Positions 34,966 through 52,331 of a DNA stretch of 52,331 nt are shown in pieces. The DNA comes from Deltaproteobacteria bacterium (GTDB taxonomy: Bacteria; Myxococcota; Myxococcia; Myxococcales; SZAS-1). Positions within the stretch are counted from its first letter, which is position 1, and every line of letters begins with the position of its first letter. The notes under the pieces were generated by a model. It saw only the letters and a list, made by a program, of their open reading frames with translations. It was not told the origin of the DNA and ran no database searches. The translations under genes were made by a program, and so were the position numbers. The stretch spans positions 1 to 52,331 of the forward strand of contig JAFEBB010000053.1 of the NCBI GenBank assembly GCA_018266075.1, in the 5' to 3' direction.

Positions 34966-34982
34966 CAATTGGGTTAAGACGA

Positions 34983-35065
34983 CGGAAGTCCGGGGAGTCG
35001 AACCCCGCTGCGCCGAAGCGCGCCCGTTTAGCAGATGGGTGCCGTCCCTCGCTGGCTCGACTTCC
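34983..35065 (-). tRNA. tRNA-Ser (anticodon GCT)
   Basis: On the minus strand, acceptor GGAAGTC (35065-35059) pairs with GACTTCC (34990-34984), and the discriminator is G. The anticodon loop is CTGCTAA, giving anticodon GCT. A long variable arm (CGCGCTTCGGCGCAG) is typical of serine tRNAs. The T arm is GGGGTTCGACTCCCC. The anticodon stem has one A-C mismatch. CCA is not encoded. Confidence 0.93.
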
Positions 35066-35068
35066 AGG

Positions 35069-35155
35069 TGGCGGAGGGTGAGGGAGTCGAACCCCCAAGG
35101 CTTTGCGCTCGCCCGCTTTCGAGGCAGGTGCCGTCGCCCGTCGGCTTGACCCTCC
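35069..35155 (-). tRNA. tRNA-Ser (anticodon CGA)
   Basis: On the minus strand, acceptor GGAGGGT (35155-35149) pairs with ACCCTCC (35079-35073), discriminator G, then an encoded CCA (35071-35069). The anticodon loop CTCGAAA gives CGA. It has a long serine-type variable arm and a T arm GGGGGTTCGACTCCC. It lies 3 bases upstream of the tRNA-Ser(GCT) gene on the same strand, so the pair is probably one transcript. Confidence 0.94.
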
Positions 35156-35564: not shown

Positions 35565-37331
35565 CTACCGGCGACCTGCCAGCGCGTTGTTGAGGCGCCC
35601 CGCGTGCGCGTTCTTGCGGTCGCCGTAGCTGCTCACGCACAAGGCGCGAGCGGACGCACCGCACTCGGGGCAGCTCGCGCCGAGCGCGACCTCGTTGGCC
35701 GCGGCCACGCGCTCCTTGTGGTTCGTCTGCCTCGTGTCACCCCGCTGCTGGATGCAGTTCTGCCCTCTCTTCGCGGAACACGCGGGACACGCCACGAGGT
35801 TCCGTACGCCGATCCGAATGGCCGACTCGCCCTCGGGCGCGGGCGGCTGCGCGGCGACCTTCGGAACTGGCGCGATCGGTTTGGAGTCGAGCGGAATGAC
35901 CCAGAACGGGCGCTTGGTAATGGTGTCCCAACCGACCTCAAGAAGCGGCTCCCGCGAGTCGAGCTCACGCTTGGGCCAGTTGCCAATGCGGCGCCTGAAC
36001 GCCAGCCTTGCCGCCATGGGTTCATTCCGCGCTGAACGCGCCTCGCGAAGCAACTGGTGGAAGAACTCGCGCTCGTTGCGAACGGGCCCGACCTCGACCA
36101 GTTGGTCTTCGACGCTCTCGGCGGCCAGCAGCACGTCCTCGACCTCGCGGCGAGGAAGCTCCCGGTCGCACTCCGGGCAATACCTTGGACGCCCGCGGAA
36201 CTCGGCGCCGCAGAACCGACAAGAGAAGACCGGAGCATCGGACTGCCGGGGCTCGCGGCCCTCCAGCGAGGGCTTCTCGGGGTCGGTTAGGAAGCCGTGC
36301 CGCTTCCAGCACCCGGCGTGGTCGAGGATGAAGCAGTCCTGCTTGCCGACCTCAGGACACGGCCGCAGCGCGCGGCCGCACATCTGCTTCCAGAGCGAGC
36401 GCGACTGCGTGGGCCGCGCCAGCACGACCGCTGAGCAGCGCGGGAGATCCCAGCCCTCGGTGAGGATCTGGCAGTTGGACACGACCTCCAGCTCGCCCGA
36501 CGCCAACCGTCCGAGGACCGCTGCCCGCTGGGATTCGGGCATGTCTCCATCGACGTGCCCCGCACGGACGCCTTCACGCTGAAACGCCTCCACGATGTGG
36601 CGGCTGTGCTCCTTCGTGGTGGCGAAGACCACGGTCGTCCGGCCGACGGCGAGCTTCTTCCACTCGCGCACAATGCCGTCGATGAGCACGGGTTGGTCCA
36701 TCACGCGGCCGAGGTCGCCCTGGTTGTAGTCGTTGCCGACCTTCTTCACGCTGGAGAGGTCGGGCTCATCGCGACCGAACACACGCGGCTCGACGAGGTG
36801 GCCCTGCTCCACGAGCTCGGCCAGCGACGAGACTTGAATCAACGCGTCGAAGAGATCGCCGAGCGCGCGGCCGTCGGTGCGATACGGCGTCGCCGTCAGG
36901 CCCAAGAGCGCCTTGTACTTGGTGGCTTCGATGACCCGGCTCCACGAGTCGGCCTTGGCGTGGTGCGCCTCATCGACGATGACGACCTGGAACTCTCGGA
37001 GCGAGTCGCGGCGACGGTCGAGCGTGGCGATGGCCGCGACCTGGACGAGTGCCTCGGGACGCTCGCGCGCGGGGTCGATGCCAGCCTTGATGATCCCGTG
37101 CTCGATGCCGAGGTCGGTAAGCTTCCGCGAGGTCTGCTCGATGAGCTCGATGCGATGCGCGAGAAAGAGTGTTCGGCTCCCCCGCTGCTGAGCGCCCTGG
37201 ATGAAAGCGCAGGCGATGACCGTCTTGCCGGCGCCGGTGGGCGCTACGATCAGGGAGCGCTTCTTGCCTGCCCGAAACGCGGAGCGCGCATCGTCGAGGG
37301 CGCGCTTCTGGTAGTCGCGGAGCTGGAACAT
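35565..37331 (-). CDS. SF2 DEAD/DEAH-box helicase with cysteine-rich C-terminus (RadD-like)
   Basis: 588 residues. The helicase core has the Q-like FQLRDYQKRAL, Walker A IVAPTGAGKTV, motif II VIVDEAHHAK, motif III LGLTATPYRTDG, and the second RecA domain with VVSNCQILTEGWDLPRCSAV and motif VI QMCGRALRP. The C-terminal region has three cysteine clusters: FSCRFCGAEF..RYCPEC (about 375-395), CPACSAKRGQNC, and CPECGASARALC with a following His/Arg helix. The core resembles RadD/YejH helicases. The gene starts 14 bases after the nucleotidyltransferase-like gene and is the third gene of an AbiE-like operon. Confidence 0.92.
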   Translation of the reverse strand: MFQLRDYQKRALDDARSAFRAGKKRSLIVAPTGAGKTVIACAFIQGAQQRGSRTLFLAHRIELIEQTSRKLTDLGIEHGIIKAGIDPARERPEALVQVAAIATLDRRRDSLREFQVVIVDEAHHAKADSWSRVIEATKYKALLGLTATPYRTDGRALGDLFDALIQVSSLAELVEQGHLVEPRVFGRDEPDLSSVKKVGNDYNQGDLGRVMDQPVLIDGIVREWKKLAVGRTTVVFATTKEHSRHIVEAFQREGVRAGHVDGDMPESQRAAVLGRLASGELEVVSNCQILTEGWDLPRCSAVVLARPTQSRSLWKQMCGRALRPCPEVGKQDCFILDHAGCWKRHGFLTDPEKPSLEGREPRQSDAPVFSCRFCGAEFRGRPRYCPECDRELPRREVEDVLLAAESVEDQLVEVGPVRNEREFFHQLLREARSARNEPMAARLAFRRRIGNWPKRELDSREPLLEVGWDTITKRPFWVIPLDSKPIAPVPKVAAQPPAPEGESAIRIGVRNLVACPACSAKRGQNCIQQRGDTRQTNHKERVAAANEVALGASCPECGASARALCVSSYGDRKNAHAGRLNNALAGRR

Positions 37332-37345
37332 GGCCGGCTCACGTT

Positions 37346-38125
37346 CTACGGCTCACTGGCGAGCTCTGCGAAGAGGTCGACGACCGAGCGAGCCAGCAGC
37401 GCCTGATCCTGCTGGTCGAGGGTCGCCGCATACTTCAACACGTCGAGGACACCCGGGGACTCGACGTCGCCGAAGAGGGTATAGAGGTCTCGACGAATCG
37501 CCCTGCCCTCATGCACGGCATCGAGCGCTGGGCCGACCACCTTCGGCGTGTGCAGCCGCACGTAGGCGAAGATGTCGAAGCAATCCTTCGTCTCGCCCGG
37601 CCGGTGAATCAGCTTCGCGTCGAGCTTCAGGGCCAGGAACGCCGCCGGTGAGGGCACCTGGAGCGGCAGCTCGCGATCTTTGAGCTTGACCGCGAGTCGC
37701 TGAGGGCGAGCAAGCGCTAGCGCGCCCTGAGGCAGCCGGGTGGCTCCCGTGGGCACTACCGCATCGTCGATGTCGTCTGGCACGAAAAGATCGATCTCCA
37801 CTGCGACCTCGCCGACCTGCTTCGCCCAGCGATGTTCCCTCGTCCGCTTGTAGCCTGCTGCACCGAGAATCTGCGGCAGGCGCTCGGCCTGCTGCGGTTG
37901 CTGCTCGAAGTCGAAGAGCAGATCAGGCTCGAACGAGTAGCCACGCGGAACAGTGATGCCCGTGTCGGTGACGACCTGAATGGTCGCGTCCCCCGTCTTC
38001 TGCCGAGCTTCGAGCGCGAGCACCTGGCCGCCAATGAGCACGACGTGCTCGGCAAGGTCGCCCAGCGAGAGCAAGAGCTGTCCGAGCTCGGCGAGCACGC
38101 ACTCGAACTTCTCGGCCTCAGTCAC
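37346..38125 (-). CDS. Nucleotidyltransferase-fold protein, AbiEii-like
   Basis: 259 residues. The features are a nucleotidyltransferase layout: VVLIGGQVLALEAR, then SFEPDLLFDF with acidic metal-ligand candidates, VAVEIDLFVPDD, and the downstream CFDIFAYVRLHTPK and VDLFAELA helices. In AbiE systems the nucleotidyltransferase is a toxin that modifies tRNA or other targets; here the catalytic residues depart from the textbook GSxxxD pattern. Its ATG overlaps the end of the upstream antitoxin-like gene (4 bases), as in AbiE pairs. Function is inferred from this arrangement. Confidence 0.75.
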   Translation of the reverse strand: MTEAEKFECVLAELGQLLLSLGDLAEHVVLIGGQVLALEARQKTGDATIQVVTDTGITVPRGYSFEPDLLFDFEQQPQQAERLPQILGAAGYKRTREHRWAKQVGEVAVEIDLFVPDDIDDAVVPTGATRLPQGALALARPQRLAVKLKDRELPLQVPSPAAFLALKLDAKLIHRPGETKDCFDIFAYVRLHTPKVVGPALDAVHEGRAIRRDLYTLFGDVESPGVLDVLKYAATLDQQDQALLARSVVDLFAELASEP

Positions 38126-39255
38126 GAGCTGTCTCCACGGAACGGCAGCGCCTTGAGGAAGCGCTCCAAGAGGAACTCCGCCTGCTCGGGGCCTCGGCCA
38201 CCGGCCTTTGCCAAATCGACGATGAGCTGCGGCAGAAACACGCCGGGCCCGTGCGGAAGCGGTCTCGGCGCCAAGTAGATGCCGCCCGCTTCGGTCTCAG
38301 CTGAGGCTTCGGCGCGCAGCACGAGGAAGTTGTGCGGCGTGACCTTACGTAGTCCGAGCGTCTCGACGAGAGGCTGGCTCTCGCCGCTCACGTAGAGCGC
38401 GTGAGGCAGGCCCGAGACGAAGAGTTCGTCCTGAGAGAGTCCGCTCGCAAGCGTGAAGATGCCTTTGCCGCCCGATACACGGAGCGCGTCGAGCCCACTC
38501 TGAAGTGCGTTCGGCTCGGTGCTCGGCGCGTTGTACGCCTCTAGAGCGATGGCGGTCTTCTCGGGGCTTTTCATCCATGCCCGGAGCAGCGCTCCAGCGT
38601 CGCGGACGTGGAAGCCTGACCGCGTCGATGTCCGCGCGACAAAGCCTTGGCGTTCAAGTCCGCTCAGGACACCGTGTGCATGCACGTAGCTCGTCTGGGT
38701 TCGGGCGGCGATCGCCTGGGCCGTGAATGTCGTCGTCGTTTCCGACAGCAAGAGGCGAACGATCCGGCAGCCCTTGCCAGAAAAGAAGCTCGTTCTTGGA
38801 GCACGCTCGACGTGCCCGTGGCCAACCACGTGGACGTAGACCGGCCCCGAGTGCGCGATCACCGTTCCGCGCTGGTCGACAAGCGCGACGCCTTCGCTGA
38901 GACACGAGTCCACAATGGACGGCAATGCAACGGATGTTGCCAGCGCCGGCACGATTGGGGCGCTCACCTTGCCAATCGCGGCATCGCGCCGTCGACGCTC
39001 TTCAGCGACGGCGGTGATTCGCTCCTTCAGTCGAGGAACGTCTCGCGCAAGTAGGCTCGGGCGGAAGACGATCAGGAGCTGCACGTCTGCTGTTGGGCTC
39101 CGCAGGGTGGCCCAATCCAAGACGAGTTCTCCAGCCTGTCCAACCTGAGGCACGACCGTCGTCTCACCACGAACGAGCGCCAAGCCGGCTGGCAGCTCGA
39201 TCTTCTGCCGCCAGAACGCCTCCCTGTCGTCGGCTCGTGGAACGGCGTTTTTCAT
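38122..39255 (-). CDS. AbiEi-like antitoxin with REase-like N-terminal domain and winged helix
   Basis: 377 residues. The N-terminal 160 residues match by eye a restriction-endonuclease-like fold seen in some AbiEi-family proteins (VDSCLSEGVALVDQRGTVIA and SGPVYVHVVG). A winged helix follows (RIVRLLLSETTTTFTAQAIA, TQTSYVHAHGVLSGLERQGF), then a C-terminal domain (YNAPSTEPNALQSGLDALRV). This would bind its own promoter and counter the partner nucleotidyltransferase. A perfect 12-bp inverted repeat lies 3 bases from the start codon (39258). There is no ribosome site, so the mRNA may be leaderless. Confidence 0.75.
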   Translation of the reverse strand: MKNAVPRADDREAFWRQKIELPAGLALVRGETTVVPQVGQAGELVLDWATLRSPTADVQLLIVFRPSLLARDVPRLKERITAVAEERRRRDAAIGKVSAPIVPALATSVALPSIVDSCLSEGVALVDQRGTVIAHSGPVYVHVVGHGHVERAPRTSFFSGKGCRIVRLLLSETTTTFTAQAIAARTQTSYVHAHGVLSGLERQGFVARTSTRSGFHVRDAGALLRAWMKSPEKTAIALEAYNAPSTEPNALQSGLDALRVSGGKGIFTLASGLSQDELFVSGLPHALYVSGESQPLVETLGLRKVTPHNFLVLRAEASAETEAGGIYLAPRPLPHGPGVFLPQLIVDLAKAGGRGPEQAEFLLERFLKALPFRGDSS

Positions 39256-39745: not shown

Positions 39746-39779
39746 GGGCCCTGCTCGCTTGAGCAGGGCCCTTCTCTTT
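39746..39779 (+). terminator. Intrinsic terminator, rightward
   Basis: A perfect 11-bp stem GGGCCCTGCTC / GAGCAGGGCCC (39746-39756, 39761-39771) with loop GCTT, followed by TTCTCTTT. It terminates the small winged-helix gene. Confidence 0.88.
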
Positions 39780-39795
39780 GGCGGATACGACCTCC

Positions 39796-41283
39796 ATGGC
39801 CAACAACAAGAAGGCACAGACCGGTCGCCCCCGCAATGCGACTAAGACGCCTGCCGACCCAGCCAATGCTCCGGACACCTCGAAGAGGCGTTCGTCGCAG
39901 GCTCCCGCGGCCACTGCCCCCGCGGACACCGCTCTCGCGCGGCCAACGCAAGTCAAGCGTACGGATCGCCGGCACAGCGAAGGTAGACCGGACGGCACGC
40001 GGACGGCATTCAAGCGTGACCGGGATCGCGTTCTGTACTCCGACGCGTTCCGCAGATTGGCTGGGGTCACCCAGGTCGTCCACGCTGCCGAAGGCCACGG
40101 GTTCCACAACCGGCTCACACATTCGCTGAAGGTGGCGCAAGTCGGGCGACGCGTCGCTGAGAGGCTCGCCACCGATGTCGATCTATCCGCAGCAGCGGGT
40201 GGCATCGACCCAGATGTCGTTGAGACGGCGAGCCTCGCCCACGACCTTGGGCACCCTCCCTTTGGACACATCGCAGAGGAGGAACTACACGCCCAGATTC
40301 AGGCCGTCGGTGTCGAGGATGGTTTTGAAGGGAACGCACAGTCCTTCCGAATCGTGACCCGAGCCGCGATTCGCTCAAACGAGCATCTCGGGCTCAATCT
40401 CACTCGCGCATCGCTCAACGCGATTCTGAAGTATCCGTGGGCCCACGGCGCCGCCGGCAAGAAGAGCAAGAAGTGGGGGCACTTCTTCAGCGAGACAGAA
40501 GACTTCAACTTCGCTCGCCAGATGACTCCTGGCGAGAAGCAATCCAACGAAGCGAGCCTGATGGACTGGGCTGACGACATCACCTATGCGGTGCACGACG
40601 TGGAAGACTTCTATCGCGTTGGGACGATTCCGCTCGATCGGCTGCTCTCGGGCAAAGGCCCAGAGCGCGTCCAGTTCATCGATGCGGCAGTCGCTCGGTG
40701 GGCCGAGTCCGAACAAGTGGATCCCGCTGCGAAGGACAAGGCGAACAGGTTCTTCGACTTGCTCGGTCCATTCATTCCCGACGAACTTCGGAGTCCATAC
40801 AGCGGAACGCGCGCTCAGCGAGCAGCTCTGAACCAACTGAGCTCGATGCTGATCACGCGGTTCGTGCTCGCAATCAACTTCGTAGAGGCCGCTGGCTCCG
40901 TCGGCCTGCGGTTCGAGGAAGCCAAAGCCTTCGAGGTGAAGACACTCAAGAGCCTTATGGTGCACTACGTCTACCGTAACCCTGCTCTCGTCGCTCAGCA
41001 GTTTGGGCAGCGAAGAGTCGTGGCGGAACTCTTCAAGATCCTCTTCGACGCCGCGAAGCCAGGTGCAAGAGATGCCGGGGTGATTCCCATGCCGTACCGC
41101 GATCTGCTTGACGAGGTGAATCGCGGAGGACCTTGCGTCCGATCGCCTGAAGACCAGAGTCGAGAGCGAGCGAGGCTCGTGGCTGACATCATCGCGAGCC
41201 TCACAGAGCAACAAGCACTTGAGTTCCATCAGCGGCTCGCCGGGATCAGCCCAGGCTCTGTGCTTGAGAGCATCATCCGGTGA
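39796..41283 (+). CDS. dGTPase-like HD-domain deoxynucleoside triphosphate triphosphohydrolase
   Basis: 495 residues. After a low-complexity N-terminal extension (Pro/Ala/Thr-rich, residues 1-55), the dGTPase family begins: DGTRTAFKRDRDRVLYSDAF and FRRLAGVTQV. The metal-binding His appears in HGFHNRLTHSLKVAQVGRR and the HD pair in ETASLAHDLGHPPFGHIAEE. A later acidic residue in DWADDITYAVHDVEDF completes the site. The family cuts dNTPs to nucleoside and triphosphate. Antiphage dGTPases deplete dGTP during infection. This one lies in a defence island and is followed after 22 bases by a broken gene that may have been its partner. Confidence 0.93.
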   Translation: MANNKKAQTGRPRNATKTPADPANAPDTSKRRSSQAPAATAPADTALARPTQVKRTDRRHSEGRPDGTRTAFKRDRDRVLYSDAFRRLAGVTQVVHAAEGHGFHNRLTHSLKVAQVGRRVAERLATDVDLSAAAGGIDPDVVETASLAHDLGHPPFGHIAEEELHAQIQAVGVEDGFEGNAQSFRIVTRAAIRSNEHLGLNLTRASLNAILKYPWAHGAAGKKSKKWGHFFSETEDFNFARQMTPGEKQSNEASLMDWADDITYAVHDVEDFYRVGTIPLDRLLSGKGPERVQFIDAAVARWAESEQVDPAAKDKANRFFDLLGPFIPDELRSPYSGTRAQRAALNQLSSMLITRFVLAINFVEAAGSVGLRFEEAKAFEVKTLKSLMVHYVYRNPALVAQQFGQRRVVAELFKILFDAAKPGARDAGVIPMPYRDLLDEVNRGGPCVRSPEDQSRERARLVADIIASLTEQQALEFHQRLAGISPGSVLESIIR

Positions 41284-41305: not shown

Positions 41306-41845
41306 ATGGCCGAACTCGTGCCCTTCGATTCCGAGCGCGATTGGCGCGCGTCGATCTTCTGGGCAAAGGCGCCGGAGAAAGACAGCGAGTCCTCACCCGA
41401 AGATCCTCTCGCCCTCGCCTACTTGAGCCAGCAGGTCGGACTGTGGCTCTTCGGCGGGCTGACCACGCGCACCAGCCGCGCGCAGAACTACCTGGTCGTC
41501 CTTTACGGACTCGATCTCGCGCGACGCGCTGCTGTGCACTACGGTAAGCCCCAGGGCCATGAGGTCTACGAGACCTTCTTCAACCGCTGGGAACGGCTCT
41601 GGGCGCTCGCGACCGTGGAATCACATGGGGGCGTACTCGAACGCGGGCACCCGGACTCGATGCGTCGCATTTGCGGCGCCAAACGGCATTGGAAAGATGC
41701 TGACCGGCCACTGGAGCTCGACTTCCAGTTGATCGACCGCCAGAGCGAGCTGGGCGGCTTGGGAGCATACCTTTCATCGCTCCGCGCAAACGGACTCGTG
41801 CTGCCTGGCACCCTTCAGCCTAGCCCCTCCGCCGAGGCACTTGGG
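41306..41845 (+). pseudogene. Gene of unknown family truncated by IS66 remnant
   Basis: A GGAGGAG ribosome site and ATG open a frame of about 175 native residues (MAELVPFDSERDWRASIFWA ...). Segments resemble the intact protein at 48926-50356: DPLALAYLSQQVGLWLFGGL / DALGLRRAADRFAEALAPGL, FNRWERLWALATV / WLRPLELLWVART, and ELGGLGAYLSSLRANGL / YRQVGAYGIYRTIFRR. Beyond about 41845 the frame runs into the minus-strand IS66 genes, so the C-terminal two thirds are lost or replaced. It follows the dGTPase gene by 22 bases. Function is unknown. Confidence 0.65.
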
Positions 41846-42238
41846 GTACAGCTTGTCCGCCACGTCGAGCGCGTGGACCCGGGGCACGATCTCCAGATGC
41901 TTCTGCTCGCGCGGGCCGTGTCCGGTCTGCTTCCCGCCCGGCCGCTTCTCGCGCTTGTCCCCGAAGAACCGCGCCCGCGCCTGCTGCAGCTGTTCACGCC
42001 ACAGCGCCGCAACGCAGCCGCGCTCGATGCGCTTCGCGAAGACACACAGCCCCGTTCCGTCCCAGTAGAGCAGCTTGGCGCGCTTCCGCGTCCGGCTGGT
42101 GAAGAGGAACACGTCGCCCGAGAGCGGATCCCGCTGGAGCTCGCGCTTCACCAGCGCGAAGAGGCCGTCGAAGCCCTTGCGCAGGTCCGCAGGTCGCGCG
42201 TACGCGAAGACCGAGAACCGCCGCGTCGAGCCGATCAC
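41840..42238 (-). pseudogene. IS66 TnpB-TnpC fused remnant
   Basis: The GTG at 42238 overlaps the tnpA stop (GTGA). The first 65-70 residues are TnpB: RRFSVFAYARPADLRKGFDG, VFLFTSRTRKRAKLLYWDGT, GLCVFAKRIERG. The frame then switches without a shift to TnpC-like sequence: LWREQLQQARARFFGDKREK and VHALDVADKLYPKC, resembling the leucine-zipper/FGxxSEK and zinc-binding CPxC regions. The first zinc Cys is Tyr. The rest of TnpC is missing. Confidence 0.8.
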
Positions 42239-42567
42239 GCGAGTTTCCGGAGCAGCGCCGCGAGCGCGTCGAGATCCAGGCCCTCGATGCGCAGGCCGCA
42301 CGGGCCCTGCACCACCACCTCGTGCTTCGTCGCGACGACTTCGACGGGCCGGAGCGTACGGCTGCACGGCCGCTCGCGCTGCCAGCGGTACAACGTGCCC
42401 AGCGCGATCCCGAGCTTGTCTGCGAGCGACTGCCAGGTGGCGCCTCCCGCGCGCCTCGCGCCCACGTGCGCGCAGACGCGTGCGGCCAGCTGCGGCGAGA
42501 ACCGCGTGCGCTTCCGACGCGTCGAGAGCTCACGCTTCAATGCGGCGCCCTTGTTGCTCAGGTCCAT
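42235..42567 (-). CDS. tnpA: IS66-family TnpA-like accessory protein
   Basis: 110 residues with a GGAGGAGC ribosome site directly before the ATG at 42567. The helix-turn-helix is recognisable (TRFSPQLAARVCAHVGARRA and LADKLGIALGTLYRWQRERP). The C-terminal part has the usual IS66 TnpA ending (GLRIEGLDLDALAALLRKLA). It is the best preserved gene of the IS66 remnant but cannot mobilise the element without TnpC. Confidence 0.85.
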   Translation of the reverse strand: MDLSNKGAALKRELSTRRKRTRFSPQLAARVCAHVGARRAGGATWQSLADKLGIALGTLYRWQRERPCSRTLRPVEVVATKHEVVVQGPCGLRIEGLDLDALAALLRKLA

Positions 42568-42600
42568 GTGCTCCTCCAGCCGGAGGAACACTCGCGCGGC

Positions 42601-42949: not shown

Positions 42950-44776
42950 TCACCCGGTGGCTGCGTCTTCATCCTCTGAATCCTGTGCCGCCGAGTCTTC
43001 ACTGAGAGTCGTCGTCGAAGGCTCGGCGATGCCGCAGACCTTCCGGATCTCCGAGAGGATGAGCCGTTCGCGGCGATTTCGAAACGCCTCGTATGCGCTC
43101 AACGCGGAGGGGCCGTCGCCATCAATGGCTGCCTGCATCGCCTTCAGCCCGACCGCATCGATGAAGTGGGCATCCAGGATGTCGGCCGATGGTCCCTTCG
43201 GGAAAACGTCGGTGTCGCTGACGTACTCGGCAGGAGGCTGATCGAGAATCTTGCGGTTCGTTTCGTCCGAAATGAGCGTGCGATTGACGATGCTATTGAC
43301 ATCAATCCGAGCCTTCAAAGCGCTCCGCTTCAGATACGCCTTCGGGAAGATGTGATGATCCTCCAGCTGCTGGAGCTGGATGCTTTCAGCTCGGGACCAA
43401 TCCCTCGCTCCTCGGGCCGCGAGAAGGCAGAACACCCCGCAGTAGATCGCGCTGGCGTGACTCGCGGAATGGCGAACCGTGAAGCCACTTGAACCGATCC
43501 GGGATTGGGCCTCGGAGAAGACGCTCGGGGTACCGGACTCGCCACTCCAAAGCCGGAGCATCTCCTGGTAGTCCTTCCTCGACTTGCTCTCGACCGCGCT
43601 GGAGTACCGCTCCAAGAACACGTTGCACCAATACCATCGGCGCAACGACGACCGGGCGTCGTCTCCGAGCTTCTTCGAGTCGATGTGCTCCTTCAAAGCA
43701 GCGAGCACGGGAAGAAGGCCGAAGCCAGGAAGCCATTTCTGGTCAAAGACGCCGAAACCGTCTGGACCAACGTGCTGGATGAGCTGCAGGGCCCGCTCGA
43801 TCGCTGCAGCCGCTCGATGCCAATCGGCCACAAAACCTTCAGGCGCCAGATCGATGAGCACACGTGGTCGAACTTCCTGATCTCTCAGCAGGGCGATCGT
43901 CCGCAGCATCAGGACACCGAATTTGTTCTTGTCTGCCTTGCCGCCCGACCAGGTTCGCAGCCGCTCGTGCTTTTCGCAGGCTTCGTCCCACAGCTTGTGG
44001 AGATGAATTCCCGATCGATACAGCCGGGCCGTGAGGAGGTCGTAGACCGAGAGTTCGACACCAGTCGAATTCAGCTTCTCGAAGATCGCGCAGACTTGGG
44101 CGAGGGTCGACTTGTCCGCCTCGTTGACGAGAGGTAGCTCGATCACCGGCACTTCGAAAAGGCTGAAGGCGTGAATCGCCTCCTTCCATCGGGGGCGGAG
44201 CTCCGACTTGTACGTCTCGACGGCCTTGGGCTCGTGTTTGTGAAGCCAGTCCTCAAAGCCGTCGAGCCACTTGTCGAACAGGTGCCACGACAGATCGGTA
44301 CACGGGAGGATCCGCCGTTCGTACTGGACCTCGACACGATCCAGACCATCGAGCTCGTTGAGCGCCCGGTCAAAGACGATCTCGTCGTCCTCCGGGGTCG
44401 CACGAAGCTTCTCAAGATCCACGAAGAACCGCCTCGGGCGCGACGAGTCCTTCAGAGAAAGCTTTGGCGCGTGGAGCGCATACACGAGCGACGTCAGCCG
44501 CTGCTGCCCATCGAGAACGAGAAACTCGGGAGCAAGAGTCGTCGACTTCGGTGCCGCCCCACGGAGTTCCTTGGGTGAGAACGGCGGGCTATTCGGGTCG
44601 CACCGAAGGAAGAGCAGTGAGCCAACGTAGTACCGGCGCAAGATGGAGCGCAGGAGGTCTGCGATCTGGTCTCGCGGCCAGACGAAGTCGCGCTGGAAGT
44701 TCGGAAGGCAGACCTTGCCTTCATGCGCCTGCGCAACAATATCGACCAACTTTCTCGTAGCCGGGGTGAGTTGCAT
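42950..44776 (-). CDS. DUF262 (GmrSD-like) nuclease with C-terminal HNH motif
   Basis: 608 residues. The N-terminal DUF262 domain has PNFQRDFVWP (residues 25-34) and the nucleotide-binding DGQQR at 89-93, as in type IV restriction GmrS and SspE. The C-terminal part has a HNH-like motif LEDHHIFPKAYLK followed by NRTLISDETNRK, as in DUF1524/GmrD. In GmrSD and SspE, NTP binding by DUF262 controls DNA nicking. GGAGG lies upstream of the ATG. It is the last gene of the five-gene leftward operon, 99 bases after the helicase gene. The acidic C-terminus (SEDSAAQDSEDEDAATG) is likely disordered. Confidence 0.9.
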   Translation of the reverse strand: MQLTPATRKLVDIVAQAHEGKVCLPNFQRDFVWPRDQIADLLRSILRRYYVGSLLFLRCDPNSPPFSPKELRGAAPKSTTLAPEFLVLDGQQRLTSLVYALHAPKLSLKDSSRPRRFFVDLEKLRATPEDDEIVFDRALNELDGLDRVEVQYERRILPCTDLSWHLFDKWLDGFEDWLHKHEPKAVETYKSELRPRWKEAIHAFSLFEVPVIELPLVNEADKSTLAQVCAIFEKLNSTGVELSVYDLLTARLYRSGIHLHKLWDEACEKHERLRTWSGGKADKNKFGVLMLRTIALLRDQEVRPRVLIDLAPEGFVADWHRAAAAIERALQLIQHVGPDGFGVFDQKWLPGFGLLPVLAALKEHIDSKKLGDDARSSLRRWYWCNVFLERYSSAVESKSRKDYQEMLRLWSGESGTPSVFSEAQSRIGSSGFTVRHSASHASAIYCGVFCLLAARGARDWSRAESIQLQQLEDHHIFPKAYLKRSALKARIDVNSIVNRTLISDETNRKILDQPPAEYVSDTDVFPKGPSADILDAHFIDAVGLKAMQAAIDGDGPSALSAYEAFRNRRERLILSEIRKVCGIAEPSTTTLSEDSAAQDSEDEDAATG

Positions 44777-44875
44777 GAGCCGACGATTCCTCCATCGAGA
44801 ACAGCGAGCAAGGCGTTTCTTCTACGAGACCGGCGGGAGGACGACGCGCCCGACGATGCTGATGACGCAGGCACC

Positions 44876-47005
44876 TCATCCCGCGACAGCCAGCTTCATG
44901 TTCAAGCCGGCGAGCTTCTTTCGGGCGAGCCCGAGAACCTTCGTCACGAATGTCTGCGAGGCACTCGTATCTACATCCATGTCGACGGGAGGCACGCCAC
45001 CGAGCAAGAGGTCGAAGACGTCGAGCCGCACCTTCATGATCTGCACGGCCTTGCCATCGCGTGTCCCCTCGAAGCTTGGGAACGCATACCGGATAGGCTG
45101 GTTCGTCAGCGATGCCCATCCGCCCACTCGGCGCACTCTCCCGTTCCGCTGAAGCGTCCTTACCGGGCTGGGATCCAGCTCGTAATGTACGAGGTGGCAA
45201 CAGTACCGATGGAGATCGACGCCCTCAGACAGCCTGTCCGTGGCCACAAGCACGTCTGGTCCGAAGGGGCTGTTGAAGACGGCAAGGATTACGTCCGGTG
45301 ACCCTTGGTAGAGCGTCTTCGGCTGCTCCTGCGATCCCGTTGCATCCCACGACCCGAGCGTTCGCGTCCCCTTGTCCAGGCCCCCCGACATCGCCAGCCA
45401 GGTTCCCTGATGCTCAATGGTCCTAAGCACCGCAAGAGTCGACCGTGAACGGCCATCAATGAGCCCATTGAAGAGCTTCTCGGCGGCTTCAGCGATACTG
45501 AGGACGCGATCTTCGGTTCTGCCACGCGGCTTTTTATCTCGGAGCTTCTCGGCCAGTTCTTCCACCGAGCCAGAGTGTGGCCCTATCCAAGCGCTCACCT
45601 GACTGCGAATGCCTTTGCTCGCGAGCCAGTCCAGGAAGGTCGCCCGGAGCTCGTCAACGTCCGTCGGCAACTCCTCGCTTTGTCCGAGCTCAGGCTTGGG
45701 GATCACGGCGTCCCACGCCTGCCGCCACATCTTCGCCGACTCCGTGCTCAACGTTCGGGGCTTCAGGTTCGCTTCAAGCGCACCAAGCAGTTCAGCCGCA
45801 GTCGCACGGTGATGACAGAAGACTAGGACCTTTTCTTCTCGCTCTACGACTTCGTCGATCGCCCGCACGACGGCCAACATCTTCGGGTGCGGCGAGCCCA
45901 TTCGCTTTTTGAGAAGGTTCTTCGCAGCGTTCAGGTGTCGCTCGGCAACGAAGTCAGCGGCGGCCTGGAGCCGGTCTTCGTCAGCTAGGTCGGTGGCCAG
46001 ATGCGCCCAACCGACGTGGTACCGAGGGTCGTTCGTCCTGGTACGTCCAACCTGTGGGGTCAATCGCAGGTACCGGTCCGCACGAATCAGGAGCTCGACA
46101 TCCTCTTCGCCAGCTGGAGGCACGGAGATGGGCCATCCACGAGCATCGATGTCTCCGAAGTGCGTTCGCTCGGCTTCGCTGAGCGACGCAATTCCATGTC
46201 GAATGACGTACGGCGCGGTTGCCTCGATCGCGTCCTGAGCTGCCTGCACCAGGCGACTGGCTTCTTCTTCAACGCTCCGGCCCGCGCTGTCCCGATGGAG
46301 TCGCTCAAGTGCAAGGGCGTACCGCTCCACCGGCTTGTCTACGCCTTGCGCTCCTACAAAGCCGAGCAGCTGGACGAGTTCATCGACATCGATGCTGAAT
46401 GGTGTGGCCGTGAGGATGAGCTTGGATTTCGCCATGCGTCCCAGGTCGGCAAGCGCCTGGCTGAACGCACTGTTTTCTCCTTTGGCTCGGTGGGCTTCAT
46501 CCACAATCATCAGGTCGCAAGCCGCACGTCCCGAGCCGCGTAGCTGCACAAGCTGATGGTGCGTCCCGATTTGGATGCGTCCCGAGCGGAGGCGCCCCAC
46601 GTCGCCAACCTTCAATTGAGAGTCATTGATGTCTTGGAGGAGCTGCGCACGGGCGCGAAGCGGGTTGATGTGGGCCTGTAGTTCTTCGGCCCATCGACGT
46701 TGCATCACGGAGTTCGGAGCATAGATTCGGACGCTCTTGCCGTGCCCCGCGACCACCCACGCGACAAGCGCAGCAATGGTGGTCTTTCCGAGCCCGACGT
46801 CGTCGGCAAGAAGAACGCCTCCAACCCGTTTGTATCCGGCGGCTCCGGAGATTCTGCAGAGGATCTCATTGGCGGTTCGGAACTGGCGACGAGTCGGCTC
46901 CAGTGCCAGGGGCCGATTGCTGCCTCTGCAGGTCTCTACGTAGCTGTCGGGATAGGCCAGGAACTTCCAGCTCGGCCCGTTCAGTTCAAGGAAGTCATCC
47001 GGCAC
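44876..47005 (-). CDS. SNF2-type (SF2) helicase of the candidate defence operon
   Basis: 709 residues from a GTG at 47005 with GAGGAGG six bases upstream; an upstream TTG at 47020 is less likely. Motif I is GVLLADDVGLGKTTIAALVA, motif II is MIVDEAHRAK, motif III is LILTATPFSIDV, and the second lobe has VLVFCHHRATAAELLGAL, DVLVATDRLSEGVDLHRYCC and motif VI LQRNGRVRRVGG. The family would translocate on double-stranded DNA. A long insert (about residues 430-560) separates the two lobes. It overlaps the end of the PLD gene by 11 bases. Together with nuclease partners, this suggests DNA targeting. Confidence 0.9.
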   Translation of the reverse strand: MPDDFLELNGPSWKFLAYPDSYVETCRGSNRPLALEPTRRQFRTANEILCRISGAAGYKRVGGVLLADDVGLGKTTIAALVAWVVAGHGKSVRIYAPNSVMQRRWAEELQAHINPLRARAQLLQDINDSQLKVGDVGRLRSGRIQIGTHHQLVQLRGSGRAACDLMIVDEAHRAKGENSAFSQALADLGRMAKSKLILTATPFSIDVDELVQLLGFVGAQGVDKPVERYALALERLHRDSAGRSVEEEASRLVQAAQDAIEATAPYVIRHGIASLSEAERTHFGDIDARGWPISVPPAGEEDVELLIRADRYLRLTPQVGRTRTNDPRYHVGWAHLATDLADEDRLQAAADFVAERHLNAAKNLLKKRMGSPHPKMLAVVRAIDEVVEREEKVLVFCHHRATAAELLGALEANLKPRTLSTESAKMWRQAWDAVIPKPELGQSEELPTDVDELRATFLDWLASKGIRSQVSAWIGPHSGSVEELAEKLRDKKPRGRTEDRVLSIAEAAEKLFNGLIDGRSRSTLAVLRTIEHQGTWLAMSGGLDKGTRTLGSWDATGSQEQPKTLYQGSPDVILAVFNSPFGPDVLVATDRLSEGVDLHRYCCHLVHYELDPSPVRTLQRNGRVRRVGGWASLTNQPIRYAFPSFEGTRDGKAVQIMKVRLDVFDLLLGGVPPVDMDVDTSASQTFVTKVLGLARKKLAGLNMKLAVAG

Positions 47006-48929
47006 GTCGCACCTCCTCAAGTCGCCACGTCAGCTCTTGAGCGACGACTCGTGCAGCCCCCTTGAAGACCGGATCGTCTTCAGAACGCCGCTGAAAGATC
47101 GCCAAGAGCCTCTCCCCATCGGCCCGAACCCTGCTGAGTGCGCCCGGCTCGACGTTGGAGCAGCGCTTCAACTCTTCCAGCCACGTCCCCACGACGTCGA
47201 ACCACTCTCTCGCTTGCTCCATCGCCGCCACGGAGTAGTCGCCCCCGCCGATGGCCGAGCTTGCTTCACCGCCGCCTGAGGGCTCGGAAAGGCCAGGGAT
47301 GTCTCCCGACTCCACGGTGGGACCGCCGTACATCTCCAGGAGCAGCGCATCCCGAAGCGCCTCTTCGGCTTCCGGCGAAACCTCAGGAACGGGCAGAAGA
47401 ACGAACTCTTCGTCAGGTCTCAGGTCGACAACGGGGACCTCAAGATGCTCCTCGGCGACCGAGAACGTCACCGAGAAGGGCAAGCCGCGCCCATCGTCCC
47501 ACGCCAATCTAGCTGCCCAGGTCTGGGACCCCACGTCATCGAACTTGAGCTCGGCCGGAACCGAGTTGCCCTGTGCCTGCACCAAGCCAGTTATCGTCTG
47601 CTCCTCTGAAGCAAGTCGGCAAGTCGCCTCGATCTGTCTGCCATCCCAGGACGCCGCAGCCCAGACGATGTGTCGGTCTGCAACCCGCTCAAGTTCGGAC
47701 GTCGTGAACGGTGCGTACTCATCGTCAAAGGCCATCAGCTCGTCAGGGTCGATCGGCCAGTCGGCATCCAAGACAACGCCGAGCTCGAAGTTCCTCGCCG
47801 GCTGGACCCCGGCACCCCAGGCCGATGCACTGAAGTTCGCCGAAGTGATGAGGAGCTTTCGGACCCGGCCTCGGCGCAGCCCATAGAACTTCGCGTGGCT
47901 CCAGCGAGGGTCGCCATCTCTGTGGTCGGGATGAAACCGGCTTACCGGCCCAGCCCTCACGTGACCAAGACGTTCGACCTGAACACCCGCGCTCGTGAGG
48001 CAGTCGAGGGCTGACTTCGAGAGGCGCCATTCTCCACCCGAGATTCCCGCCCACGGATGGGATTCATCGATCCACGCGAGACCTAGTCGGTCCGGGTCTG
48101 TTCCCAGCGCCTTGCACCAGGCTTCCAGGGTCTCGCCGTTCCAGCCACCGACGAACGGCACACAAATGCGAACTTCGAGGGAGCCCCGGTCCTCTGGCGC
48201 GACTGCGCGGAGCGCCCTCGCACCCCAGCGGCGGTCGTCTCCAGGCTCACGAACCGTCGACGGAACAGTCGCAACGAAGCTCACATCGTCTGGGCAAGCA
48301 GCTTTGCCCAGTAGGTCAACGAAGTAGGCTGCTCGTTTGGGCGCCTCTGGCCCTCCGGCCGAGGCCGTCAGGACCTGGAGGAAGTCAGGCAAGATTCCCC
48401 AGGAAGAGAGATTCGCCTGGGTCGGCCGGTCTCCGAGCTCGACCGTCGCTCGCCACCCGCACTGGAGCTGCCCCCTGAAGGCGGCCTCGGTCAAATTGGT
48501 GGATGAGACGAACAACTCCAGCAAGTCAGGCTCGGTATCCGACCTCCAGTGGAACATCCAGAGTTTGGCGTGCTGCACAGCCTGTCCGGTCGCCCCCACG
48601 GTGAACGGCGACACGTATCGCCACAACCACGGGTACTGCGGCTTGGTAGCCGCGGAGAAGTTGTGGTCACCATCCTCGTCCGCAGTGGAAGAGACGATCG
48701 TCATCCGACCGCGAAGCCGCTCCAGGCGTACGGCGAGCTCGCCAAAGAAGAGAGCCCTTCCCTCCGGCTCGTTGGTCGGACTCCGAGACAGGTGGAGTAG
48801 AGAGGGGAGTAGGTGCTCGACGAGAAGCGGCGCCTCGGCTGGGCGGTATGTCGTCATGAACATCGCGGCGAGCTGGTGCCGGCGAGGAGGAATCGGGATC
48901 GAGCTCAGCCAGTCGGACTCAGTAGTCAC
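46995..48929 (-). CDS. PLD-superfamily protein with Tdp1-like HKN motifs
   Basis: 644 residues with two half-sites typical of the phospholipase D superfamily. The first is QHAKLWMF (H120, K122) with FVSSTNLTEAAFRG (N145). The second is SHAKFYGL (H345, K347) with LITSANFSASAWG (N365). The Asn in place of Asp and the SANxSxxAWG pattern resemble tyrosyl-DNA phosphodiesterase 1. The last 170 residues are a separate acidic to helical region. It may process DNA ends or protein-DNA adducts, or nick DNA, together with the overlapping helicase. The GTG start overlaps the preceding gene by four bases. Enzyme activity is inferred. Confidence 0.85.
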   Translation of the reverse strand: MTTESDWLSSIPIPPRRHQLAAMFMTTYRPAEAPLLVEHLLPSLLHLSRSPTNEPEGRALFFGELAVRLERLRGRMTIVSSTADEDGDHNFSAATKPQYPWLWRYVSPFTVGATGQAVQHAKLWMFHWRSDTEPDLLELFVSSTNLTEAAFRGQLQCGWRATVELGDRPTQANLSSWGILPDFLQVLTASAGGPEAPKRAAYFVDLLGKAACPDDVSFVATVPSTVREPGDDRRWGARALRAVAPEDRGSLEVRICVPFVGGWNGETLEAWCKALGTDPDRLGLAWIDESHPWAGISGGEWRLSKSALDCLTSAGVQVERLGHVRAGPVSRFHPDHRDGDPRWSHAKFYGLRRGRVRKLLITSANFSASAWGAGVQPARNFELGVVLDADWPIDPDELMAFDDEYAPFTTSELERVADRHIVWAAASWDGRQIEATCRLASEEQTITGLVQAQGNSVPAELKFDDVGSQTWAARLAWDDGRGLPFSVTFSVAEEHLEVPVVDLRPDEEFVLLPVPEVSPEAEEALRDALLLEMYGGPTVESGDIPGLSEPSGGGEASSAIGGGDYSVAAMEQAREWFDVVGTWLEELKRCSNVEPGALSRVRADGERLLAIFQRRSEDDPVFKGAARVVAQELTWRLEEVRRAG

Positions 48930-50356
48930 GCTGCCTCCTCCTCTTCTTCATTCTTGAGATCGGACTCTCTGGTCTGGGCGGCAGTGAGGGCGTGCTTCAG
49001 GTTTGGGATGCCGCACTGCGAAGCCATCCGACAGAGCGACCACAGCCGGAACCCGTAATCGGATGCCCGACCTACGTCCTGCGGCAGCAGCGGCTCGATG
49101 CGGTCTCGTCGAAGGCGGAACCATCGCAGGCCGCCACCAAAGGACTCGTGGTGTTTGACCAAGGCAGTGACTGCGTCCGAGGTCGACCGAGCTGCAAGCG
49201 ATGCTCGCGCCAAGGCCGTGGCCGCATCGTCCCCATGCCCACCCGCGTCCACGTGGCTGCCCCACGCTGCAGCAGCATCCCGGAGTCGCTCTAGGGCATC
49301 GCCAAGCTGCTTGTCCCCGGCAGCGTCAGTGACCGAAAGATGCGGCCCCTGGGTCGACGCTCCAATCAGCTCCCACAGCCGCCGAGTCACTTCCATGCCG
49401 CCATCTGCCAGCCGAGTGAATGCAGGCAGAGCTCGGAGCAGAGCTGCGTCAGGCGTGGCCTGGAGAGCTCGTGCCTTGGCCAAGTCCTCGCACAACCCGG
49501 TGTGCGTGGCTGCGTCGGACTCCGAAAGTACCCGAGCAACCTGTGTACGCCGTGAAGCGTCGGCGAACAGTAGGGACCGGAGCGCCTTCCGCTCATCTTC
49601 GTTTTCGAGAGGAGAGCAGTCGTCGGCCGGCGTCGGGACAAACGTCGAGCGCCCCAAGGAGTCCCAGTTGGGCCACCCTTTGAGCATCCACCACTCGTCC
49701 TGTCTGTCAGTCCAAACAGCCCACTTCGAACGCTCTTCCATCCAATCTTCGGACGGACGGGCTCCCTGAGGGATGGCGGCGACTACGATCCGAGCAAGCT
49801 GGTGAATCCCGTCATCTGGGGTCCAACCGTCGCGAGCCCCTGCCCCGTTCTTCGTGAACCCGGGCACTCGGCGAAAGATGGTCCTGTAGATTCCATACGC
49901 ACCCACCTGACGGTAGCGCCTGAACTGGGCCTCGCTCAATCCAAACCGAGGCTCCCATTCCCTGTCGACCAACAGCCCCCTCAACCAAGGGGCAACTCGT
50001 CGCCGGCCTGGAAGTTGCCGGCCCTCGGAGCTCTCGTCGAAGTGCAGGGTTCTCGCGACCCAGAGCAACTCCAAGGGACGCAGCCATGCGTACCGACCTC
50101 GCTGAGCGTCCCGAGTCTTGAGATCGCCGCCCTCTGCTCGATTCCACGGCTCATGTGATGTTTTGATGCACCAAGCCAAAATGCTGACCCACCTCGCGTC
50201 CCGTGTTCCGTTGGTGAGGCCCGGTGCTAGAGCCTCGGCGAAGCGATCCGCCGCTCGGCGGAGGCCCAGGGCGTCGCCTCGCCGTCGAGCCGGGGCGTCC
50301 CAAGGGCTCGTGAAGAACCACCCGTGCTGCGGAAAGACTTCCTGTTTCGTCGGCAT
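48926..50356 (-). CDS. Protein of unknown family, candidate core of the defence operon
   Basis: 476 residues, no motif that I recognise. The N-terminus has MPTKQEVFPQHGWFFTSPWD followed by DALGLRRAADRFAEALAPGL and RDARWVSILAWCIKTSH, then W-rich WLRPLELLWVARTLHF. The second half is mostly helical. It seems related to the gene truncated at 41306. The end is acidic (ESDLKNEEEEEAA). It overlaps the PLD gene by ATGA and follows the CBS-HEPN gene by 29 bases. It could be the target-recognition or scaffold part of the operon. Function is unknown. Confidence 0.8.
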   Translation of the reverse strand: MPTKQEVFPQHGWFFTSPWDAPARRRGDALGLRRAADRFAEALAPGLTNGTRDARWVSILAWCIKTSHEPWNRAEGGDLKTRDAQRGRYAWLRPLELLWVARTLHFDESSEGRQLPGRRRVAPWLRGLLVDREWEPRFGLSEAQFRRYRQVGAYGIYRTIFRRVPGFTKNGAGARDGWTPDDGIHQLARIVVAAIPQGARPSEDWMEERSKWAVWTDRQDEWWMLKGWPNWDSLGRSTFVPTPADDCSPLENEDERKALRSLLFADASRRTQVARVLSESDAATHTGLCEDLAKARALQATPDAALLRALPAFTRLADGGMEVTRRLWELIGASTQGPHLSVTDAAGDKQLGDALERLRDAAAAWGSHVDAGGHGDDAATALARASLAARSTSDAVTALVKHHESFGGGLRWFRLRRDRIEPLLPQDVGRASDYGFRLWSLCRMASQCGIPNLKHALTAAQTRESDLKNEEEEEAA

Positions 50357-50385
50357 GCGACGCCCCTCCCAGCCTCATTGGCAAA

Positions 50386-51201
50386 CTAGGTCGTCCTCTT
50401 CTGGTGAAGAGCACTCCGAGCAACTCCGATCAGCTCTCCCAGCTCGCGAATAGCCTTGGCGACCCGCCGAGCGTCCTCTGGATCCATTGCGAAGCCTCCA
50501 GCATGCGCAAGGGGATCCCTGAGCACTTCAATCGGTTCCATTCGCTCGCAGAATCGGTCGGTGTCTTCCCCGAACACACGGCGAGCCCGAACGAGGATCC
50601 GCTTGTCGGCCAACGATGTGATCTCTAAGAGGTCGACCTCGTTGCGCCGCTTTCGCGCTCGCTTCAACCATCTCTTCAGGAGGTCCTGGCGCTCCTGAGC
50701 GAAGTGAGCCAGCCACCGTTCATCATTAGGGTCGAGGACGGCGAGGAGAACCTCTCGCAGCAGGAGCTCCAGGTGCGTGAGCCGCGTGAAGATCACCGAA
50801 CGGACCGGCAGCTTCTGCAGGTCGCTCAGAGTGAGAATGCCTTCGATCCGGCCTTCACTGAGGACGAGCTTGAAACTGGGCTCGTTATCGAGTCGCTCCA
50901 GCACGGGCAGAAGGGGATCACCGGCGGACGCAAGCATTCGCTCGTGCAGCGGGAGCATGATCTCCGACACGGTCTGAGAAGGCGCCTCCTCTGCGCGCTT
51001 CCGAGCTAGGACTCCCACCACGACGTCGTTCCTACGGGCTGGGATGAAGTCGATGTTCGCCAACTCAGGCCGACCGATCACTTCTCCGGCAGTATCGGCT
51101 GCGCCACACGAAAGCAGCGACATCGTGGCCGCCAGGCGAACCGTTGCTGCGCTCTCCAGATTTGAGAGGTCGGCATCCAGTGCGTTTGCGGCCCAAGGCA
51201 T
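50386..51201 (-). CDS. CBS-like domain protein with HEPN-type RxxxxH motif
   Basis: 271 residues. Residues about 90-135 read as one CBS-like unit (PLLPVLERLDNEPSFKLVLS and EGRIEGILTLSDLQKL). The C-terminal helical part has LRDPLAHAGG, an Rx4H motif (R228, H233) of the form found in HEPN ribonucleases. A CBS unit can bind adenosine nucleotides, so nucleotide sensing with RNase output is plausible. It is the first gene of the five-gene leftward operon. No strong ribosome site. Both domain calls are by eye and need a profile search. Confidence 0.65.
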   Translation of the reverse strand: MPWAANALDADLSNLESAATVRLAATMSLLSCGAADTAGEVIGRPELANIDFIPARRNDVVVGVLARKRAEEAPSQTVSEIMLPLHERMLASAGDPLLPVLERLDNEPSFKLVLSEGRIEGILTLSDLQKLPVRSVIFTRLTHLELLLREVLLAVLDPNDERWLAHFAQERQDLLKRWLKRARKRRNEVDLLEITSLADKRILVRARRVFGEDTDRFCERMEPIEVLRDPLAHAGGFAMDPEDARRVAKAIRELGELIGVARSALHQKRTT

Positions 51202-51340: not shown

Positions 51341-52030
51341 CTACCGGGCACTGGACGCGCCCTCATCCGGATGCGTTGGAGCAACACCAATCAGGCGCTC
51401 CTGCCATTGTTTGTAAGTCTCGCCCGATGCCACGACCTTCCACGTGTCACGGCCGTTCACGCTGGTCCCAGCGACTGCTACCGCAGCGGCTGTCGGCGAG
51501 TCGAAGACGTAGTCTTGGGTGAACTTGAGCAGCTCGTTCCCACTGGGCTCCAGAACGCCACTCTCGACGAGCCGGGTCCGCATGTTCTTATAGCTGGGCT
51601 GGAGAGACTCGACGTTGCGCCGCCGTGCGGTCGATCCCTTCTGTAAGATGAACGCGCCATCTTTGGCGATGCACTCGGCAGAGGCCGTGTCCCACGTCAG
51701 TCGGAGGCGAACGCCACCGACCTCAGCGCCCTCCGTATTGCCAGTCGCCGACGCGAACACGTTAAGTCCTAGCACTGGCAGGAGAAGCCTGACGTTCTCG
51801 ATGAACGTCGCCATGTCTGCCTCGTCCGCCTCCGGGAGTCGGCCTCCGCTTGGCTCGTTCCCGTTCATTACCTGCACGAGCTTGGCGGCGCGGATGTCTT
51901 CGACCAATCGCGCTTCAAGCCACCGGACGTGAGCCTTCGTCAGATTGTTGTCCTTGGAGACGAAGACCACGACCCACGTCCAGAAGTCCTTGTTCGAGTC
52001 GTGGCTGGCGATACGCGCCCAGACGTCGTC
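51341..52030 (-). pseudogene. GIY-YIG nuclease-DUF4357 protein, 5' end removed by insertion sequence
   Basis: About 230 residues remain. The first part (DDVWARIASHDSNKDFWTWV then VVFVSKDNNLTKAHVRWLEA) matches the C-terminal half of a GIY-YIG domain, lacking the GIY and YIG strands. The DUF4357 domain follows: FILQKGSTARRR, NMRTRLVESGVL, DYVFDSPTAAAVAVAGTSVN and GRDTWK. The frame can be opened from a GTG at 52048, but this lies inside the insertion sequence. The nuclease active site is therefore lost. Confidence 0.75.
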
Positions 52031-52031
52031 A

Positions 52032-52331
52032 GGCGATGTCCCTCGCACTGTTGAAAGTCGGCGGCGGGAGCGAGGCTTCTACGCAGCCTTGCTGATGTGA
52101 TCAATTCCATTCTTCATTGTGTCGTTGAGAGCAGCGATGAGCTGCGGGATCTGCCCGTGGCCGCGCACGCGCCGGAAGCACTTCTTGGCGTCCTCGATTG
52201 CTGCGACCACCCAGCGGAGCACCATCGCGCCGCCGCGCCACTTCCTCACGTTGCGCAGGCGCACGCGGAGCAGGCCGTTGAGGTTCTCAATCACGTTCGT
52301 GCTCGAGAGCGTTCGCAGCAGCGCGCCCGAG
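52032..52331 (-). mobile_element. IS256-family insertion sequence, right part outside window
   Basis: The left end is near 52032, where GIY-YIG coding sequence stops and a non-homologous 47-base stretch precedes the transposase stop. Only the transposase C-terminus is visible, and the element runs off the right edge. Terminal repeats and target duplication cannot be checked here. Confidence 0.7.
52079..52331 (-). CDS. IS256-family transposase, C-terminal part
   Basis: The 83 visible codons read through the right edge. Hallmarks of the mutator/IS256 family C-terminus are seen: LSSTNVIENLNGLLR, NVRKWRGGAMVLRWVVAAIE and KCFRRVRGHGQIPQLIAALN. The acidic residue in the IENLN segment is the expected third catalytic acid. 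The gene is probably complete outside the window. Confidence 0.85.
   Translation of the reverse strand, partial: SGALLRTLSSTNVIENLNGLLRVRLRNVRKWRGGAMVLRWVVAAIEDAKKCFRRVRGHGQIPQLIAALNDTMKNGIDHISKAA

Follow-up and report, generated by a model that had tools for sequence, protein, structure and literature searches.

Azaca, a system of three genes (zacA, zacB, and zacC), was reportedly described by Millman et al. in 2022. In PADLOC it is represented by PDLC03828-03830, and ZacA corresponds to the Pfam family DUF6361 (PF19888). Only passing mentions of the Azaca mechanism were found in the literature. Two other kinds of protein are relevant to the locus described here. GmrSD-type enzymes work either by themselves or next to BREX (PMC10952713; PMC12839542), and GmrSD and HEPN genes next to core systems are auxiliary effectors in BREX (PMC12839542). 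CBS-HEPN proteins, some with an HD domain, were described in 2013 (PMC3710099), and DS-11 is a one-gene CBS-HEPN system for which phage defence was shown and both domains were needed (PMC13092281). The present locus probably combines a divergent, Azaca-like putative antiphage core of three genes, D-C-B, with two independently acquired accessory nucleases, A and E.

The window, that is, the whole stretch of DNA analysed (52,331 bp), is the entire contig C53 of a genome of 7.84 Mb; among its most similar genomes with named records, many are myxobacterial. Five genes run leftward in the order E, D, C, B, and A, and gene F lies upstream of E (Table 1). The five ORFs reported in the first-pass annotation were all present, with the coordinates and motif residues that it had given: DGQQR at position 89 of A, GLGKTT at 76 of B, HAK at 120 and 345 of C, and RDPLAH at 228-233 of E. 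Its spacing was confirmed for the gap of 29 bp between E and D, the ATGA overlap between D and C, and the gap of 99 bp between B and A. The reported 11-base spacing of C and B, however, is best read as an overlap rather than a gap, because GTG at 47005, with AGGAGG 7 nt upstream, is the likely start of B. The GC content of A-F was 60-64%, compared with 72.7% in one flanking gene. Scans of the locus for Rfam families and for sigma-70-like promoters gave no match.

Table 1 Coordinates of the genes and other features in the window.
Feature	Predicted product or description	Position	Strand	Length
Gene A	DUF262-HNH	42950-44776	-	608 aa
Gene B	SNF2 helicase/translocase	44876-47005	-	~709 aa if the start is GTG 47005
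Gene C	Two-motif HKN (Tdp1-like) PLD-fold phosphodiesterase, ZacB-like	46995-48929	-	644 aa
Gene D	Remote ZacA/DUF6361-like protein	48926-50356	-	476 aa
Gene E	CBS-HEPN predicted RNase, DS-11-like architecture	50386-51201	-	271 aa
Gene F	DUF4357 (PDC-S14) remnant, 5' end lost	51341-52048	-	235 aa
tRNA-Ser (GCT, CGA)	Two tandem genes	34981-35155		
Three-gene set	ResIII helicase gene and two further genes, leftward	35565-39255		
ResIII helicase	Helicase with phage-type zinc finger	35568-37331		
dGTPase	dGTPase defence model	39778-41283		
IS66	Remnants	41777-42591		
Transposase-like tail	Read by eye	52075-52331		

The first-pass annotation had taken the five genes for one antiphage system and had proposed the conservation of neighbours as a test. 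Run across related loci, this test showed that only D-C-B stays together. Gene D had a match in 12 of 193 related genomes (its own genome counted). The surrounding 15-20 kb was fetched for nine of these genomes, and all nine carried D, C, and B in the same order at 34-56% identity. When the D alignment was used to scan 84,980 species genomes, 21 loci were found. They belong to Myxococcota, Pseudomonadota (including Dyella, Zoogloea, and Burkholderiales), and Planctomycetota and are partly the same records as the nine loci above, and the three genes occurred together in every locus whose sequence was long enough. Start-stop coupling is usual among the relatives, with 4-bp overlaps of D with C and of C with B repeated. 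Furthermore, the pairwise distances of the three proteins correlated at 0.98 over 17 loci, a value reached by none of 2000 permutations. Taken together, these findings show that D, C, and B move as one conserved and translationally coupled unit, that they co-evolve, and that the unit spans three phyla or more. The five ORFs are thus evidently not chance ones, since D-C-B recur in other phyla at such identities.

Gene A matched Pfam GmrSD_N (PF03235) at 9e-29, as the first-pass annotation had called it, and was closest to HEC-05 and PDC-M55C in PADLOC. Its HNH part was read from the motif EDHHIFP at position 472 only, with no match to the Pfam HNH or GmrSD_C profiles. A is predicted to be a type IV-like restriction enzyme of the GmrSD kind. 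GmrSD_N genes numbered 0-5 per genome, the genome of the window having exactly one, namely A, and relatives of A with about 30% identity were found in other genomes away from the core. Elsewhere, DGQQR was observed beside the core only at two loci (L017, 4748-8754; L023, 4254-8314), where two adjacent DUF262 genes immediately precede D (L017) or a remnant of D (L023); GmrSD_N was confirmed in the pair of L017. At L023 the pair was kept, about 57 residues remain of D, and neither C nor B is present, which reads as a decaying cassette.

Gene E gave a sub-threshold CBS match in Pfam (E 0.06) and contains an R228-x4-H233 motif. Nine gammaproteobacterial relatives with 26-31% identity all keep this motif in the form LRN/DxLAH, which bears out the earlier CBS-HEPN call. 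An N-terminal HD domain was carried by eight of the nine, and HEPN_Swt1 was matched below threshold (2e-4 to 9e-3) in three of the four relatives scanned. A tenth match (L115) resembles IMP dehydrogenase, its similarity to E being confined to the CBS domains. The HD domain of the gammaproteobacterial HD-CBS-HEPN family (L107-L114) is RelA/SpoT-like, and these proteins are possibly alarmone-linked RNases. No homologue of E was found in 192 related genomes, nor in viral contigs and plasmids. Because DS-11 defends as a single gene, E may by analogy be able to act alone.

These results bear on the view of the locus as one integrated system, in which the DUF262-HNH protein would sense modified DNA, the helicase and PLD proteins would degrade it, and the CBS-HEPN protein would abort infection. 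This is unlikely. The genes share a strand, short gaps, and a GC content of 60-64% in A-E, and DUF262 genes lie beside the core again in a second genus (L017 and L023). A rough estimate from random placement, which leaves the clustering of defence genes out of account, puts the chance of two independent placements of this kind at about 4e-5; the association is suggestive only, because genes for defence, to which both partners belong, gather in islands. However, A and E are absent from all the other core loci, and tblastn of A, E, and F against about 10 kb around the core in related loci gave no match. The relatives of A and E live apart from the core, the other DUF262 pairs are of a different type and precede D instead of following B, and a gap of 99 bp separates A from B. 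The five genes were thus rejected as a conserved unit.

Turning to the core, gene C matched Tyr-DNA_phospho in Pfam (PF06087, 1.5e-8) and ZacB in PADLOC (4.8e-9, 33.6 bits), and hhalign of C with ZacB gave a probability of 97.6% over 315 columns that covered both motifs. The residues H120/K122/N145 and H345/K347/N365 were invariant or nearly so across 22 loci. C and ZacB share HxK followed by (S/R)xNxT or SAN and have no HKD aspartate, which is the HKN signature of the Tdp1 type. C is accordingly classed as ZacB-like, a relationship that is remote and not at the level of orthologues.

Gene B matched SNF2 (PF00176, 3.3e-17) and Helicase_C in Pfam, and DDVGLGKTT, DEAH (position 174), and QRNGRxRR were conserved in 21 loci. 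The SNF2 and Tyr-DNA_phospho domains agree with the first-pass annotation, which had also singled out the helicase and the PLD protein as the DNA-acting pair, a reading that is supported here. B matched ZacC in PADLOC at 7e-19. In a tree of SNF2 proteins, it formed its own clade with support of 98-100, beside ZacC, DrmD, and PDC-M27C, and an AU test of B joined with ZacC gave a p-AU of 0.27, so that a grouping of B with ZacC is neither established nor ruled out, as is also the case for DrmD and PDC-M27C. B has about 700 residues and ZacC 1000-1150. PDC-M27C-like SNF2 helicases of three related genomes (L103-L105) form a further clade.

Gene D had no match by hmmscan in Pfam, PADLOC, or NCBIfam, including the ZacA and PF19888 profiles. 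Its family of 19 members has near-invariant RRGDALGLR, DARW, WLRPLEL, and GGGxRWF motifs. When the profile of these 19 sequences was run against whole genomes, the best match was the ZacA gene in two genomes, G065 and G140 (E 0.03 and 0.05, respectively), and in G181 an intermediate between D and ZacA was matched at 8e-6. The PADLOC ZacA profile recovered six genomes with true Azaca loci and gave a weak match in G181, at the position where D matches too. In the reverse test with the ZacA HMM, 20 of 20 D proteins scored above all reversed controls. The match is firm over about 45 N-terminal residues only (LGLxxxADxFADxLxPGxSxxxxxARW/Y), and the full-length alignment was not significant. Direct hhalign of D with ZacA was weak (E 0.002-0.003, probability 11-16%, as single sequences and as profiles); the whole-genome profile search with reversed controls is the better test of this pair. 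These profile matches suggest that D is a remote relative of ZacA. The intermediate (L024; contig C827 of G181, ~1-1030, minus strand) has a SIR2-like gene as its neighbour at the contig end, and may represent a third lineage of DUF6361-like proteins.

Structure models were also compared. The AlphaFold models of D and ZacA had pLDDT values of 73.8 and 67.5, respectively, and neither model gave a convincing fold match. For D, the best E in Foldseek was 0.35 and the best Z in VIA-align was 5.7 over 75 residues, the matches being mostly to winged-helix-like regions at 303-428 with scores not above the background for helical models; the best Z of the ZacA model was 3.5. A winged-helix-like C-terminal region of D is thus possible, being hinted at only by the models. 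A sequence search of solved structures gave nothing below E 0.19 for D and no match for C and E.

Given these relationships, we consider it quite unlikely that D-C-B is a new defence system other than Azaca, in which B and D would bring the Tdp1-like C to its targets, 3'-linked protein-DNA or other blocked ends that arise as phage DNA is replicated or packaged. The separate clade of B, the Tyr-DNA phosphodiesterase family as the best Pfam match of C, the HKN rather than HKD form of both its motifs, and the failure of any library to recognise D would all fit such a system. On the other hand, the HKN pattern also occurs in ZacB, the gene order equals that of ZacABC, and D is linked with ZacA by reciprocal profiles. 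A slim chance is likewise all that we give to a distinct, unnamed system whose two-site HKN enzyme of the Tdp1 type would attack phage DNA ends or protein-DNA adducts and which would swap DUF262 or HEPN effectors; with similarly little likelihood, an SNF2 translocase and a DUF6361-like adaptor would deliver the enzyme in such a system, and the effectors would form a modular second layer.

The surroundings agree with the defence-island setting of the first-pass annotation, which had noted other defence genes and insertion sequences: a dGTPase, a ResIII helicase, IS66 remnants, and a transposase-like tail lie nearby. The dGTPase matched the PADLOC dGTPase defence model at 3e-92. The island is foreign, bounded by insertion sequences, and low in GC. 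Two tandem tRNA-Ser genes stand at the point where GC falls, and the island may have entered beside them. The ResIII helicase gene forms a tightly spaced set with genes for proteins of 259 and 377 aa, neither of which had a significant match in Pfam or PADLOC; this set is a possible second unrecognised defence operon. Gene F, 139 bp upstream of E in the same direction, matched PF14267 in Pfam (4.5e-16) and the PDC-S14 profile from position 95 only. At 51341-52331, F is without its first ~94 residues and what reads as the C-terminal end of a transposase lies just upstream; an insertion seems to have cut off F, which is unlikely to be functional. In another genome, a GIY-YIG-like frame just upstream of a true Azaca ZacA gene contains a relative of F with 48% identity over 99 aa (L040, 14622-14918).

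Known defence genes are frequent neighbours of the core elsewhere: BrxHI (L019), an IetA-like AAA protein (L052), LmuA/PDC-M48B (L055), LmuB (L057), AbiEii (L049), an AddAB-like UvrD and PD-(D/E)XK pair (L050), and the GmrSD pair of L017 and L023. Ordinary neighbours, for example a glycosyl hydrolase (L058), were also observed. Proteins of the Tdp1-like and SNF2 kinds have general roles in DNA repair, but a housekeeping DNA-repair or mobile-element module that accumulates in defence islands is very unlikely, given the patchy distribution of D-C-B among related genomes and its spread across phyla, the repeated defence neighbours, the Azaca likeness, the foreign GC, and the absence of D from the viral contigs, plasmids, and phages searched.

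The reading of an Azaca-like core with accessory nucleases is held back by the short extent of the match between D and ZacA, the placement of B, which is not nested with ZacC, the lack of a convincing fold match, and the closeness of E to D, with which E may be cotranscribed. Under the Azaca-like reading, D would be the sensor or adaptor that recognises foreign or aberrant DNA or loads the complex on it, B would translocate on DNA by ATP hydrolysis, and C would cut the phosphodiester backbone through its two HKN motifs. Every ATPase and HKN residue of B and C is conserved, which argues that both activities are under selection. Neither the core nor the scanned genes next to it contained a methylase, suggesting that discrimination would rely on DNA structure or modification, or that the response would kill the cell. 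A would cut modified DNA on its own, in the manner of GmrSD or BrxU, and E would cleave RNA once an adenine nucleotide is bound by its CBS pair, as in DS-11. Both would act as parallel or back-up effectors and not as parts of one machine.

The first-pass annotation had set the locus apart from DISARM, BREX, and Druantia, and this stands. A PLD protein and an SNF2 helicase are common to DISARM and the present locus, and weak matches to the DrmC and DrmD profiles were observed. However, no other gene matched DrmA or DrmB, neither DUF1998 nor a methylase was found in genes A-F with Pfam, PADLOC, or NCBIfam, DrmD is a separate clade, and the DrmD score of B (86.5 bits) is far under the cut-off of 610 bits; DISARM was rejected on these grounds. 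ZacC, the helicase of Azaca itself, also matches DrmD and PDC-M27C. BREX and Druantia were rejected as well, with no match to PglZ, BrxC, or a DruE-type helicase in genes A-F in the same three libraries. PDC-M27C was the best PADLOC match of B (78 bits), whereas C and D matched no PDC-M27 model and the grouping of B with PDC-M27C had a support of 42%.

The accessory genes have their own counterparts. A resembles GmrSD, BrxU, and SspE in its GmrSD_N part, which contains DGQQR, and in its C-terminal EDHH motif, which is HNH-like. E has the CBS-HEPN layout with R-x4-H in common with DS-11, to which we liken it by architecture as described; E, however, adjoins a core of an unrelated kind, and most of its relatives carry the additional HD domain. 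The locus also illustrates that five tidy co-directional genes may consist of a three-gene core with independent add-ons.

The closest likeness is to Azaca, which the first-pass annotation had missed. The PADLOC comparison that it had proposed gave weak ZacB and ZacC matches of C and B in the core. D-C-B and Azaca have the same gene order and tight spacing and the same series of a ZacA-like protein, an HKN PLD protein, and an SNF2 helicase, and the layout of true Azaca loci (L035-L040) is the same as that in the window and its relatives. They differ in that D is below detection by the ZacA and DUF6361 profiles, B is shorter and in a separate clade, and Azaca is without the accessory A and E. 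We call the core Azaca-like rather than Azaca because the signal between D and ZacA covers those ~45 residues only and because B has its own clade, neither joined to nor barred from ZacC. Judged from its sequences, D-C-B is an Azaca-like cassette, unannotated in the libraries searched. With D undetected by the versions of Pfam, PADLOC, and NCBIfam used and B and C scoring as remote relatives, defence surveys would fail to count this cassette, although it is present in three or more phyla. The tie to Azaca widens a little-understood family, and the conserved residues together with a diverged homologue pair offer a handle on how the arrangement of ZacA, PLD, and SNF2 proteins functions.
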